The translations under genes and the position numbers were made by a program. DNA of 64,000 nucleotides from Rhododendron vialii (taxonomy: Eukaryota > Streptophyta > Magnoliopsida > Ericales > Ericaceae), in NCBI RefSeq assembly GCF_030253575.1, contig NC_080561.1:30837564-30901563 (forward strand), written 5' to 3'. Below, one piece after another: positions 1,295 through 61,112 of the stretch (its first letter is position 1; each line of letters begins with the position of its first letter). Below the pieces are notes generated by a model that was not told the origin of the DNA, ran no database searches, and saw only the letters and a list, made by a program, of their open reading frames with translations.

Positions 1295-1305
1295 GTCCCA
1301 CATCA
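1295..1305 (+). promoter_or_regulatory. Orphaned snRNA upstream element (USE) of variant U1-1
   Basis: GTCCCACATCA matches the plant snRNA upstream element with one change at its end. A second partial copy lies just before it, near 1275. In block B the same element sits 34 bp before a TATA box. Here the following sequence is broken by about 0.5 kb of inserted repeats, so it lies about 520 bp before the U1 start at 1827. Confidence 0.75.
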
Positions 1306-1334
1306 TTTACCGAGGGAAAGAGGAGAGCAACGAT

Positions 1335-1560
1335 TTGTTTGTCCATTTTTATTATTTGGAACTTATTACAAAATTATCTATATGTTTTAATTTATAATGT
1401 TTTTTTATATGCAATATGGATCTTGTTTGATAGATTTTAATTAAATCTAAAATATGATGTTTTCGAAATTATATAAAACATTATAGATTATGAGATATAG
1501 ATAATTTAAAAAAAGCACGTATGTCGAAATTAGACAAATAAACTGGGATGGAGGGAGTAC
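1335..1560. mobile_element. Stowaway-like MITE remnant
   Basis: The right end reads GGGATGGAGGGAGTAC, the classic plant Stowaway-type terminus, and the left part has the matching TTTGTCCATTTTTATTATTTGGAAC-like interior without a clean left terminus. It sits between the USE and body of the variant U1 and helps to separate them. Confidence 0.55.
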
Positions 1561-1802
1561 AATTTTGTTCACCCTCATTATCCTTTCTCTTATTAGTTGG
1601 TTGAAATGGTGTGAATTCTATTACAAAGTGATGACATGTTTATTATGCAATACGCTTTTTGATAAGCATGACATCACTTTGTGATGGGTAATATTATTTT
1701 AACCAATAAAAAGTTAGGTAATGTTCACGTGGTTAATATTATTTTAACCAATAAAAAGTTAGGTAATGTTCACTTTTTTAAGTGGAAGGTGAACAAAACT
1801 CA
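1561..1802. mobile_element. MITE with TTTTGTTCACC terminal inverted repeats
   Basis: The ends read AATTTTGTTCACC and GGTGAACAAAACT as inverted repeats, with AGTAC on both sides as a possible target duplication. The interior holds a direct duplication of a stretch containing TAATATTATTTTAACCAAT. The same family is at 4513-6023. Together with the adjacent remnant it splits the U1-1 promoter from its body. Confidence 0.65.
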
Positions 1803-1826
1803 AGTACGTGAGAAGGGGTATAAAAT

Positions 1827-1994
1827 TACATACCTAGACGGGGTCAATGGGTGATCAAGGGCGGGCTCATGGCCTAGGTGCGTGGCTTTCATTGCACATA
1901 CTGAAAGTGCACTCGCCTAACATCTCTCCTCTGTTGAGAGACTGTACGTCTTAATTTCTGGTAGCTGGGGCCTGGGCTCTGCCGCGGCCCCTCC
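1827..1994 (+). ncRNA. Variant U1 snRNA, copy 1 (U1-1v; probably silent)
   Basis: U1 snRNA base-pairs with the 5' splice site at the start of spliceosome assembly. This copy shares the unusual body of the locus at 32643: a 5' arm with ACATACC, a stem-loop II of CTTTC and GAAAG around ATTGCAC, a stem-loop III with CTCTC and GAGAG, and an Sm-like AATTTCTGG. It has an extra change in the arm (CCTAG for CCTGG) and a lengthened stem-loop I. Two miniature elements separate it from its USE, and the TATA box is not at the usual distance, so it is probably a pseudogene of the block-B variant. Confidence 0.8.
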
Positions 1995-2975: not shown

Positions 2976-3135
2976 ATACTTACCTGGACGGGGTCAATGG
3001 GTGATCAATAAGACCCATGGCCTAGGTTAGTGGCCTCCATTGCACTTAGGAGGGGTGCTCGCCTAAGGTCTACCCAAGCGGTGGAGCCTACGTCATAATT
3101 TGTGATAGCGGGGGCCTGCGTTCGCGCGGCTCCTA
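2976..3135 (+). ncRNA. U1: U1 snRNA gene (U1-2)
   Basis: The RNA starts ATACTTACCTG, the conserved arm that pairs with the 5' splice site CAGGTAAGT. Stem-loop I has the GATCAATAAG loop (the U1-70K site in known U1s) closed by GGGT and ACCC. Stem-loop II has CCTCC and GGAGG around ATTGCAC (the U1A site). The Sm site is AATTTGTGA, and stem-loop IV is GGGGCC with GGCTCC, paired with one G-U wobble. A plant 3' box (AGTTTAA) follows at 3147-3153. Promoter and body are both intact, so expression is likely. It lies 1.15 kb downstream of variant U1-1v, the same pairing as in block B. Confidence 0.95.
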
Positions 3136-3591
3136 CCCTATTCTGAAGTTTAAAGCATTTGGGTTCTAGAGGGTTAGTTATGTTGTTTGGTTACTTCTTC
3201 ATGTTTTCCAATATAAATTGAAATATAGAAGTTATATTTATGATCAATGAACATCTTGACCCAATCTGTAAGGCAGCCAGCTCGAAGAGGAGTTTTTCCT
3301 TATCAGGACCTTTATTTCCTGATTTCCTGAGATGGCTTGCTGCCCATCTTAGAGGCTTATGTATTTTTTGAGATGAGATACCATGAGTCGTCATTGTTTA
3401 CATCTAGGACATTCATTCGGAGTATTTGAAATATCAGCAGACTTTCTAGTTTTTTGGTGTTCTTTACGAGTTTGTGGTCAACTTGAATGCATTGATTAGT
3501 TTTCTATTATGTCTACATACGTACGCACTACTGTTGCTTTGATCTTTCGTGCATGGCTGTTGATTGCTGACCATACAGCTTCTATTGTTAG

Positions 3592-6969: not shown

Positions 6970-26082
<19,113 letters not shown>

Positions 26083-32565: not shown

Positions 32566-32620
32566 GTCCCACATCGTTTACTGAGGGAAAGAGGAGAGCA
32601 ACGGTGGCTGTATAAAAAAG
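32566..32620 (+). promoter_or_regulatory. U1-3v promoter: USE and TATA
   Basis: A perfect USE (GTCCCACATCG, 32566-32576) and TATAAAAAAG (32611-32620) are 34 bp apart, the RNA polymerase II snRNA spacing. The variant U1 starts 32 bp after the first TATA base. This intact, correctly spaced promoter is the main reason to think the variant is transcribed. Confidence 0.88.
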
Positions 32621-32642
32621 GAGGTGGGAAAGGGAATTAAAA

Positions 32643-32810
32643 TTACATACCTGGACGGGGTCAATGGGTGATCAAGAAGGCTCATGGCCTAGGTGTGTGG
32701 CTTTCATTGCACATACTGAAAGTGCACTCGCCTAACATCTCTCCTCTGTTGAGAGACTGTACGTCTTAATTTCTGGTAGCTGGGGCCTGCGCTCTGCCGC
32801 GGCCCCTCCT
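32643..32810 (+). ncRNA. Variant U1 snRNA gene (U1-3v) with altered 5' arm
   Basis: The 5' arm reads TTACATACCTG where ordinary U1 has ATACTTACCTG: position 5 is A instead of T, so it pairs with U at donor position +4 and fits CAG|GTATGT best. Stem-loop I keeps a GATCAAGAAG loop. Stem-loop II is CTTTC/GAAAG around ATTGCAC, and stem-loop III is TCTCTC/GAGAGA (32738-32743 and 32751-32756); both sides differ from ordinary U1 yet still pair. The Sm site is AATTTCTGG (32768-32776), and stem-loop IV is GGGGCC/GGCCCC. The 3' box is only weakly recognisable (CAATTCTAAA). Known U1s vary little, so kept structure with changed sequence suggests a period of selection. Expression is inferred, not shown. 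Confidence 0.85.
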
Positions 32811-33606
32811 CAATTCTAAATACCCACAAATTTTTTGCAGAGAAATGACTGGCACACCAACCGTTCGATTGTTTGCACGAGACAAAGCCAGCTATCATTG
32901 AAATAGATGTTTAGATTGTGGTACTCGATTCTCATACCCAGAATTTTTTTGGAGAGAAATGACTGCATACCAACTGTTTGTGTGCTTGCTTGAGAGAAAG
33001 CCATCATCGAAGGAGTAGATGTAGAGATTGTGTGCGACTTAATTCTGGGTTTCCCCTGCCTGATTTGTCTTCTCTGGTAGAGGAGAGAGAGACCCATCAG
33101 CAGAAAACAGTCAATCTACTCTCCGAATACCTGCCAACTGTTCTAGTTTTTGCTATAATACTTTGTTTGGAACTTGCAGAAGAGAAGGGAAAGTAACAAA
33201 ATGAATTCAATTTTGCTCCTATTTTCTCTCCGACCTTTCATCTATCTCTCTAAATTATGTTGTCCATTTTTTTTTCCTTTCCACAAGTTTCGAGAAGAGT
33301 TTCTGGTGGGAGCTTTCTTCAGATTAATTGCCATCGTGTTTGTTTCGGTGAATTATCTAGCTCCCCAAGAGGCTTTCCATTTCGTCCAATTCAATAAATT
33401 TCTAAGTTTCTTGAGCAGGCAGGTATAGAACATTTGCACGCTAGTGATGCTACGAATTTTGAATCGGGGTAGCAAGAAAACGAATCGGGACTCTTGGCTG
33501 TAATCCCGTATCAATATGGACGTGAAGAAAGAGCGGCAAATGCATCTGCCTAAATGAGCAGCAAGCAGGAAAAAAAGAGAGAACTAAAGGGTCACTCTTG
33601 TTTTGA

Positions 33607-33684: not shown

Positions 33685-33844
33685 ATACTTACCTGGACGG
33701 GGTCAATGGGCGATCAATAAGACCCATGGCCTAGGTTAGTGGCCTCCATTGCACTTAGGAGGGGTGCTCGCCTAAGGTCTACCCAAGTGGTGGAGCTTAC
33801 GTCATAATTTGTGATAGTGGGGGCCTGCGTTCGCGCGGCCCCTT
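33685..33844 (+). ncRNA. U1: U1 snRNA gene (U1-4)
   Basis: Starts ATACTTACCTGG. The stem-loop I loop is GATCAATAAG, closed by GGGC and ACCC with one mismatch. Stem-loop II (ATTGCAC), the Sm site AATTTGTGA and a fully paired stem-loop IV (GGGGCC with GGCCCC) are present. The 3' box is CAGTTCAGTTTAAAGC. Near-copy of U1-2 with an intact promoter; probably active. Confidence 0.94.
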
Positions 33845-33939
33845 CCCAGTTCAGTTTAAAGCATTTGGTTGGTTTCTCAAGGGTTAATTACCTGGCCCTA
33901 ATTACCCTTGTCCAATTTCTTCTTCATGTTTTCCGTTGG

Positions 33940-35569: not shown

Positions 35570-36290
35570 TAATTGCCATTTGAAAAGATAAAATCACCAA
35601 ATGAGCACCCGAAATTATATTTGAAATAAATTTTGGTAGGAGCTGCGCGGGCGCTAGCCCCTGCTACAACAAATTGTGACGTAGACTCCACCGCTACCAC
35701 TTGGATAGACCTTAGGCCAACACCCCTCCCAACCCAAGTGTGATGGTTCCAAACAAAACTCAAGGACAATGGGAACTTAATTGTTCTTGCACATGGAGAT
35801 CACTAAGAAAAGAAGGCAGAAAAATGGATTTAGGGTCAGTAGGTTGTTTCTTTGAATCTTTATAAGTTAGTCGAGTTTTAGTGTCAATAGTTTTATCTCG
35901 CATTTTTTTTTTATATAACTCTGGAATAGAAGGTTGTTCTTATATTTCAATCTAAAAATGATGCAAAGAAAGACGATCGGCATCAAAATAAGGTCATGCT
36001 CTGTAGTTCATTCAATCCAAATTAGGTTAGACACTTCAAAGGTATATATAGCGCCCATGATCCTAGAAAAATATTGGGTCTTCCTAGCTATCGTCATATT
36101 GTAATGGCGATGGGTACCATGTAGCGGTACCCCACCGAGACATTGATTGACTGCCTCCATAGTAAAAGGGCACCCACTTGCTACTGAGCATCATGAACTG
36201 CTATAGCAAAGGCTTAGAGTATGTACGTATAGGGATTCAACTATAGGTGATAAGGTGGGTAAGTAATACTGGGGGATTCACAGATTCTTA
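35570..36290 (-). repeat. Inverted partial copy of the U1 array unit
   Basis: Read on the minus strand this follows the flank order seen downstream of other U1s: the CCTCATAGTAAAAGGGC-like stretch near 36170 is the reverse of CCCTTTTACTATGGAGG, and 36240-36280 is the reverse of the CCCACAATATTACTTACC stretch. A 3' U1 fragment lies at 35636-35747 in the same reversed orientation. Confidence 0.7.
35636..35747 (-). pseudogene. U1 snRNA pseudogene, 3' part only (U1-5)
   Basis: On the minus strand the sequence covers stem-loop II's end through stem-loop IV: GGAGGGGTGTTGGCCTAAGG, TCTATCCAAGTGG, the Sm-like AATTTGTTG and a decayed stem-loop IV. The 5' arm and promoter are absent. It is the only U1 locus on the minus strand. 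Confidence 0.85.
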
Positions 36291-47803: not shown

Positions 47804-47963
47804 ATACTTATCTGGATGAGGTCAATGGGCGATCATTAAGGCTCATGGCCTAGGTTAGTGACCTCCAATGCACATAGGAGGGGCGCTCGCCTAAGGTCTA
47901 TCCAAGTGGTGGAGCCTACGTCATAATTTGTGGTAGCGGGGACCTGCGTTCGCGCGGTCCCTA
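47804..47963 (+). ncRNA. U1 snRNA-like locus (U1-7), probably inactive
   Basis: The body is full length, but the 5' arm reads ATACTTATCTG, with T in place of the C that pairs with the first intron base. The stem-loop II loop is AATGCAC instead of ATTGCAC, and the USE is degenerate. Stem-loop IV has changed on both sides (GGGACC with GGTCCC) and still pairs, so the copy was maintained for a time. Sm site AATTTGTGG is kept. Best read as a recent pseudogene or a strongly altered variant. Confidence 0.8.
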
Positions 47964-59740: not shown

Positions 59741-60777
59741 ATACTCACCTGGACGGGGATAATGTGTGATCAACAAGGCCCATGAACTTGGTTAGCAATC
59801 TCGATCCATTGCACTTAGGAGGAGTGCTTGCCTAAGGTCTACTGTTAGCACCTTGATTTCCAAGGCTTTCTAAGCTTGGCTAGCGGTGGCACCTTGCACC
59901 CTAGCCAACCGGTGGAAACAAAGGCATGAGGCAGACATGTCTTTACAAGGTGACCCGACGGTGTCGGTTGGTGTCGGCACTGGTCTCTAAGGCAAGTGGC
60001 AGTCGTGATGCACGTGATGGCCCGATGATATCGAGGCAGGGATGCTAAACGGGAAACAGGCTTGTGGGACAAGGCAATCAAGGAAAATGGCTAAGTATTG
60101 GGAGCTGGGGTTGGATCACGAAATTGGCCAGGCAGCCTTGAGTTTGCTCGGGCAAAACGGAGGCAGCCTTGAGTTGGCTCAGGCAAAACGGTTATTGACG
60201 GTTAACAGCATTCTGCACATGTTGCTGGGAGCATGGGACAGGTGTCCAAGGCAGAAACGGGCTGCATGTGTTGCTGGCAGCATGGGATAGGTGTCCAAGG
60301 CAGAAACAGGCAGTTATCAGCAGTTATCTCCAGGCAGTTTCATGTTTCAGTGTGCTGGCAGATTCTGGCAGTGCCAGCACAGCCCTAGGGCAGTTGGGGG
60401 TGTCAACTGCAAGATCATGGGTTGGCCCATGATCTCATGTACTTAGTGGCCACATTTTTATGATTGTAAGCCTATTTAGGCAAGCATTTTCGTAGCCTAA
60501 GGCAGGGGGTTGTTCTGTCTAGGTTCTTAAGTGTATTCCTTTGTAAGTTGGTGCTTAATAAAGGTTGGGACGGTTCCCGTAACTCTTGAGTGTGTTTCTA
60601 GACGTTCAAACATATCGGGTGTGTGAGTAAACACTAGTTGGCTGAGACCAAGTTGTTGGCAAACTTGGTGCCATCACGGGTAGATTTCTAGGCGAAAAAT
60701 AGCCCCGTGACATCTACCCACGTGGTGGAACCTACATCATAATTTTTGGAAGAGGGGGTCTGCGTTTGCGTGGTCCG
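59741..60777 (+). pseudogene. U1 snRNA pseudogene split by a solo LTR (U1-12)
   Basis: The 5' arm reads ATACTCACCTGG, which would fit GTGAGT donors. The body runs to CTAAGGTCTAC, is interrupted at 59843-60712, and resumes CTACCCACGTGGTGG through a decayed Sm site (AATTTTTGG) and stem-loop IV. No TATA box at the usual place. Confidence 0.87.
59843..60712 (+). mobile_element. Solo-LTR-like insertion in U1-12
   Basis: Starts TGTTAGCACC and ends CCCCGTGACA (TG...CA), with a perfect 5-bp target duplication, TCTAC (59838-59842 and 60713-60717). 870 bp, with no coding capacity. A primer-site-like TTGGTGCCATCACGGG near its 3' end suggests that a bit of internal sequence may remain. Lineage not assigned. 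Confidence 0.8.
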
Positions 60778-61112
60778 GTTTCTCGTGGCAACCTGATAGT
60801 CGAGTCTGTAGAGACAAACATTTGATGAGGAACAGGAATTTGAACGTTAAAATGGGGTATCTGCGGGATCATACAAAAGATAAATGAATTTTCGCCGGTC
60901 ACAAGCCAAGCATCCATAACTGAAAAAGAAGACATCGGGTGGGATGAGTTTCAAGAGCATTGGAGTTGTGGTGAAACTAAGGTAGCGTTAGCAGGAGACC
61001 AAAGATAGCTGTACTGCGAAAACATTTGAGTGCTGCGGTGGACATTCGACACCCATAAAAAAACTGATGCTTAACTGCAATCATGTTTGTTTCGTGAATT
61101 ATCTGCCACAAT

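Follow-up and report, generated by a model that had tools for sequence, protein, structure and literature searches.

A probable long-lived variant U1 snRNA gene, possibly active and possibly just retired, in a U1 cluster of Rhododendron vialii

Arabidopsis has 14 copies of the U1 gene, 10 of which are thought to be active, and the excerpted text of PMC545797 gives the active ones an average mutual identity of 87%; the variant U1 described here is, in full-length matches, at most 78% identical to any non-variant copy. Ordinary plant U1 genes have a USE, a TATA box, the U1 fold and an Sm site, and they occur in several copies, some of them clustered. The variant shares the USE, the TATA box, the predicted fold and the clustered setting and carries a putative Sm site; it differs from ordinary plant U1 at arm positions 5 and 1, in rewritten stems II and III and in the lack of a 3' box core. 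Human vU1s are likewise divergent paralogues, many of them altered at the 5' end and in protein-binding regions. The excerpts of that report describe two that make up 1.0% and 0.4% of the U1 of stem cells, with smaller shares elsewhere, and a role at atypical splice junctions was proposed for vU1s (PMC5159530). The human vU1s were shown to be expressed (PMC5159530), whereas the plant variant is known here from sequence alone, and the two probably arose separately. Fly and mouse have developmental U1 isoforms that are, like the variant, paralogues in small gene families; according to a figure legend in PMC4291461 the fly paralogues have very few variable positions, whereas the body of the variant differs from the ordinary consensus by 34 substitutions. 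In Arabidopsis, loss of U6 methylation lowers the use of A+4 donors and raises that of U+4 donors, as excerpted from PMC9803359, and a U1 matched to U+4 donors would therefore be of interest. The titles and abstract openings listed from the open-licence literature described no plant U1 with the arm of the variant, which may be in print elsewhere.

The window, a 64-kb stretch of DNA on contig C5 (30837564-30901563) of a genome that was searched over 532.6 Mb in 13 contigs, contains a complete U1 snRNA gene on the forward strand at 32643-32808. It matched RF00003 with 108.7 bits (gathering threshold, 69.5) and a covariance model of its own family with 124.1 bits. The gene and its surroundings comprise the following features.

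32566..32576, + strand: USE GTCCCACATCG, read directly; 34 bp to the TATA box
32611..32617, + strand: TATA box, TATAAAA; 34 bp past the USE, 32 bp to +1
32643..32808, + strand: variant U1 snRNA body, RF00003 match; the start is perhaps the A at 32642
32643..32653, + strand: 5' arm TTACATACCTG (ordinary copies, ATACTTACCTG), with U5 changed to A and A1 to U; read directly
32670..32679, + strand: loop I GATCAAGAAG, same letters as the Rfam consensus
32691..32733, + strand: stem-loop II, with AUUGCAC at 32706-32712; two two-sided pair changes
32735..32760, + strand: stem-loop III of 9 bp; four pairs changed on both sides
32768..32776, + strand: putative Sm site AATTTCTGG (ordinary copies, AATTTGTGG), read directly
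32782..32806, + strand: stem-loop IV, from the predicted fold and the model alignment
32809..32822, + strand: expected place of the 3' box; AGTNNAA absent
33685..33845, + strand: ordinary U1 downstream of the variant, duplicated with it; partner at 2976-3136

A preliminary description of this DNA had held that the promoter was intact and the arm altered, and direct reading bore out both points. The USE and the TATA box stand at the ordinary spacing of a plant Pol II snRNA gene: among the other U1 copies in which both elements were recognised, the USE-TATA and TATA-start distances were 31-36 and 28-32, except for L021 and L025, whose TATA-start distances were aberrant (74 and 10, respectively). 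In place of the ordinary ACUUACCUG, which is complementary to CAG|GUAAGU, the variant has ACAUACCUG, and ACATACCTG occurs once in the window, both strands counted. U at position 1 is unusual for a capped start, and the variant has U there; if transcription starts at the preceding A (32642), its RNA would begin AUUACAUACC. Loop I (GAUCA..AAG, 32670-32679) and the AUUGCAC of loop II (32706-32712), which we take to be the U1-70K and U1A sites, respectively, are both present.

The minimum free energy (MFE) fold of the variant sequence alone was the U1 cloverleaf (z -2.01; 6 of 200 shuffles folded as well), which ordinary copy L001 also reached and L003 and L010 failed to reach. All four stem-loops and the closing helix are present, with 44 of the 46 ordinary pairs kept. 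When the variant was mapped by hand, with regard to structure, onto an ordinary consensus of 11 copies, gaps were confined to loops and 18 stem substitutions separated the two. Thirty-four pairs were unchanged, four were altered on one side and kept, six were altered on both sides and kept (two in stem II, four in stem III) and two were lost, namely 54-84 in stem II, near which the predicted fold has an adjacent G-C pair, and 135-159 at the base of stem IV. Thus, the earlier claim that stems II and III had changed on both strands stood, whereas "fully paired" overstated the case. When 18 stem substitutions were placed at random (20000 trials; 60% constrained to transitions, the others free), 9.4 pairs were lost on average, two or fewer were lost in 0.045% of the trials (P = 0.00045), and six two-sided changes appeared in none. 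A covariance model trained on 13 well-preserved ordinary copies chosen by the analyst, with the variant left out, produced the same alignment of the variant and the same counts (18 substitutions, four one-sided, six two-sided, two lost; P = 0.0003).

A structure-blind global alignment of 34 of the 41 genome matches, which omitted the six lowest fetched (L035-L040) and the broken copy at 59741, gave 14 stem substitutions, two two-sided pairs and five lost pairs (P = 0.136, not significant). We report both counts and set the latter aside because stem III was shifted in the plain alignment; with a P of only 0.136 there, the compensation signal rests on the structure-aware alignment. The earlier argument, that so many features would not have survived random decay together, accordingly holds on the structure-aware counts and lacks significance in the plain alignment.

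The predicted duplex of the variant arm with CAG|GUAUGU was stronger than that of the ordinary arm (-12.0 vs. -8.0 kcal/mol), and that with CAG|GUAAGU was weaker (-7.6 vs. -11.8 kcal/mol); these energies leave pseudouridines and proteins out of account. Averaged across every 9-mer donor tried, the variant arm shifted the predicted energy by -0.74 for U+4 and by +0.29 for A+4. The proposal that A5 fits U+4 and that CAG|GTATGT is the best target agreed with this calculation, in which that donor ranked top among those tried, and the model predicts a switch of donor preference from GUAAGU to GUAUGU. The CTG|GTATGT donor that had been pointed out in the cysteine synthase (8691-8686) was real by reading frame (...KEGLL|VGISSG...). 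It is one anecdote that proves nothing by itself, and we give it no weight. The cysteine synthase piece lies on the minus strand at 7600-8800, and its two exons match PDB cysteine synthase chains; no following exon was noticed by eye in 7600-8450, and the piece may or may not be a fragment.

These results are best read as a variant U1 of long standing, which may be active or may only just have been retired. We regard as evenly poised the fuller account in which the gene at 32643 is a U1 paralogue from a long-lived variant lineage within a plant U1 cluster, transcribed and matched to GUAUGU now or until recently. Pol II would transcribe the gene, at present or until recently, and the RNA would assemble with Sm proteins, U1-70K and U1A. 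Its arm, pairing best with CAG|GUAUGU, would help to commit U+4 introns, to which ordinary U1 pairs less well; the block would then have been duplicated, and one copy (1826) would have lost its promoter. The parts of this account differ in strength. In our judgement, it is highly probable that the variant lineage is real and was under long constraint as an RNA, and a variant that is still expressed and working is quite conceivable, a little short of an even prospect. Preferential action on GUAUGU introns is doubtful, as is a dedicated plant U1 snRNP for U+4 (GUAUGU) donors, with which the plant could control this class of donors separately.

According to the excerpted text of PMC5079582, plant snRNAs need the 3' box, CA(N)3-10AGTNNAA, for the processing of their 3' ends. 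The variant gene lacks this element of plant Pol II snRNA genes: no AGTNNAA occurs in the 494 bases from 32807, that is, up to 33300, downstream of it. Both variant copies read CTCAATTCTAAATA at the 3' flank, where the best core scores 4/5 and no spacer follows CA. When the cores of 30 U1 copies were scanned, 16 scored 5/5 and 14 scored less; the well-preserved ordinary copies L010, L011 and L013 also scored 4/5, yet they keep AGT. The missing 3' box is the strongest sign that production of mature RNA from the variant gene may have ceased, and it weakens the specialised-U1 reading. Neither it nor a second variant copy at 1826-1993 had been mentioned in the preliminary description.

A genome search with the variant body returned 26 matches, among which two were full-length variants (32643, and 1826-1993 with 96% identity); the best full-length non-variant copy among the 26 came next, at 78%. 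The second copy has the following features.

1295..1305, + strand: stranded USE GTCCCACATCA of the 1826 copy, approximately 520 bp from the gene start
1333..1802, strand not assigned: insert within the promoter of the 1826 copy, which it divides, in place of the former TATA segment; right limit approximate
1826..1993, + strand: second variant copy, arm TTACATACCTA, with a 2-nt insertion in loop I, a mismatch in stem IV and no 3' box

The insertion at 1333-1802 holds a stretch, GGGATGGAGGGAGTA, that resembles a Stowaway-type end. Each variant copy lies 1.0-1.2 kb upstream of an ordinary U1, and the whole block is duplicated (32618-33302 vs. 1802-2486, 93.5% identity). If usual plant substitution rates fit the 5.4% divergence of the flanks, the duplication presumably occurred a few million years ago. 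The bodies of the two copies differ by five substitutions and the 2-nt insertion. Polarised against ordinary copies, four substitutions and the insertion were derived in the 1826 copy, and the fifth substitution was unpolarisable. None of the five polarised changes fell in the 32643 copy (P = 0.03), a value that weakens if the two substitutions adjoining the loop I insertion arose with it in one event. Divergence between the copies was 5/168 in the body and 27/502 in the flanks (P = 0.29, not significant), and we dropped this comparison as proof of selection. A tree was built from the Rfam consensus and 34 of the 41 genome matches, with L035-L040 and the broken copy at 59741 left out; in it the variant copies formed a clade (100/100) with a stem of 0.32 changes per site and tips of 0 (32643) and 0.035 (1826). 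The nearest relative of the variant was the copy at 47804, with weak support (85/80).

The gene may have been recently retired: it would have functioned for long, lost its 3' box before the block duplication and decayed in both copies since. The identical box-less 3' flank of the two copies, the necessity ascribed to the box in the excerpts of PMC5079582, the absence of AGTNNAA up to 33300 and the missing promoter of the 1826 copy are all consistent with this history. However, the 32643 copy has zero or one change in 168 bases, whereas the flank rate predicts approximately 4.5 (P = 0.011 if there is none, P = 0.06 for at most one), and its USE, TATA box and motifs are still present. We consider retirement a serious possibility, if not a probable one.

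It is rather improbable that the variant is expressed and its arm change has little consequence for splicing, the RNA being a minor extra U1, engaged in other U1 tasks or too rare to alter the choice of donors. At least 33 U1 matches over the cut-off in the genome, mostly with ordinary arms, could swamp it, and the shares of the two human vU1s in stem cells (1.0% and 0.4%; excerpts of PMC5159530) fit such a role. However, the arm change costs approximately 4 kcal/mol at CAG|GUAAGU, so the variant would be a poor general U1.

The structure-fitted alignment flattered other rows as well. Among 18 rows with at least 13 stem substitutions, the broken copy at 59741 showed seven two-sided pairs, which we take as an artefact of alignment, L036 showed five and the variant copies six each. 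The decayed copies L036, L039 and L026 also kept pairs well under this alignment, and L036 lost even fewer than expected. The binding motifs of the variant were spared (4 of 37 sites changed vs. 12 of 32 other unpaired sites; Fisher P = 0.011), and the same sparing appeared at P < 0.05 in four of 14 non-variant rows (L016, L018, L021 and L034), as may be expected if these are former genes. An ordinary pseudogene with a paired look owed to chance or alignment, already unlikely on the structure-aware pair counts, would accord with the weak plain-alignment statistics and with the seven two-sided pairs given to the broken copy, but the single sequence already adopts the U1 cloverleaf in its unconstrained MFE prediction and the gaps of the map fall in loops only, and we regard this explanation as very improbable.

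If the preference for GUAUGU donors is true, the long-lived variant would be a U1-level counterpart of the A+4/U+4 division that depends on U6 methylation in Arabidopsis, and a natural U+4-fitting U1 would allow the choice of donor class to be tested where splicing begins. Even as a retired gene, the variant at 32643 clearly documents compensatory evolution in U1.

In the window, 11 U1 matches exceed the Rfam cut-off and two further pieces are weaker; the USE promoters are of the type found in plants. The genome has at least 41 U1 matches, at least 33 of them over the cut-off; most carry ordinary arms, and 26 of the 41 listed are gathered within 0.3 Mb of C5. Viral and prokaryote contigs, scanned for exact patterns, yielded no match to the variant arm and likewise none to ordinary arms, as expected for plant DNA. 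A partial U1 similarity lies on the reverse strand at 35635-35732 (75.5% over 98 bases) and also appears as L001:338-508 on the minus strand, with 49.4 bits. The U1 copy at 59741-60780, whose arm is ATACTCACC (T6 changed to C), is split by an insert of approximately 0.87 kb, with its tail near 60711-60780; L026 is a second copy with this arm. At the Sm site, five copies of the C5 cluster (L016, L021, L026, L036 and L039) carry AATTTTTGG or AATTTTTAG; they also have an extra sequence resembling stems I/II upstream of the start. At 47804-47963, a well-preserved U1 (134.1 bits) has a USE-like GTACCACGTCG and a TATA box at 32/32 bp, an arm ATACTTATCTG (C8 changed to T) and a loop II altered to AATGCAC. 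Its arm is predicted to pair better with CAG|AUAAGU (-9.8 vs. -5.1 kcal/mol).
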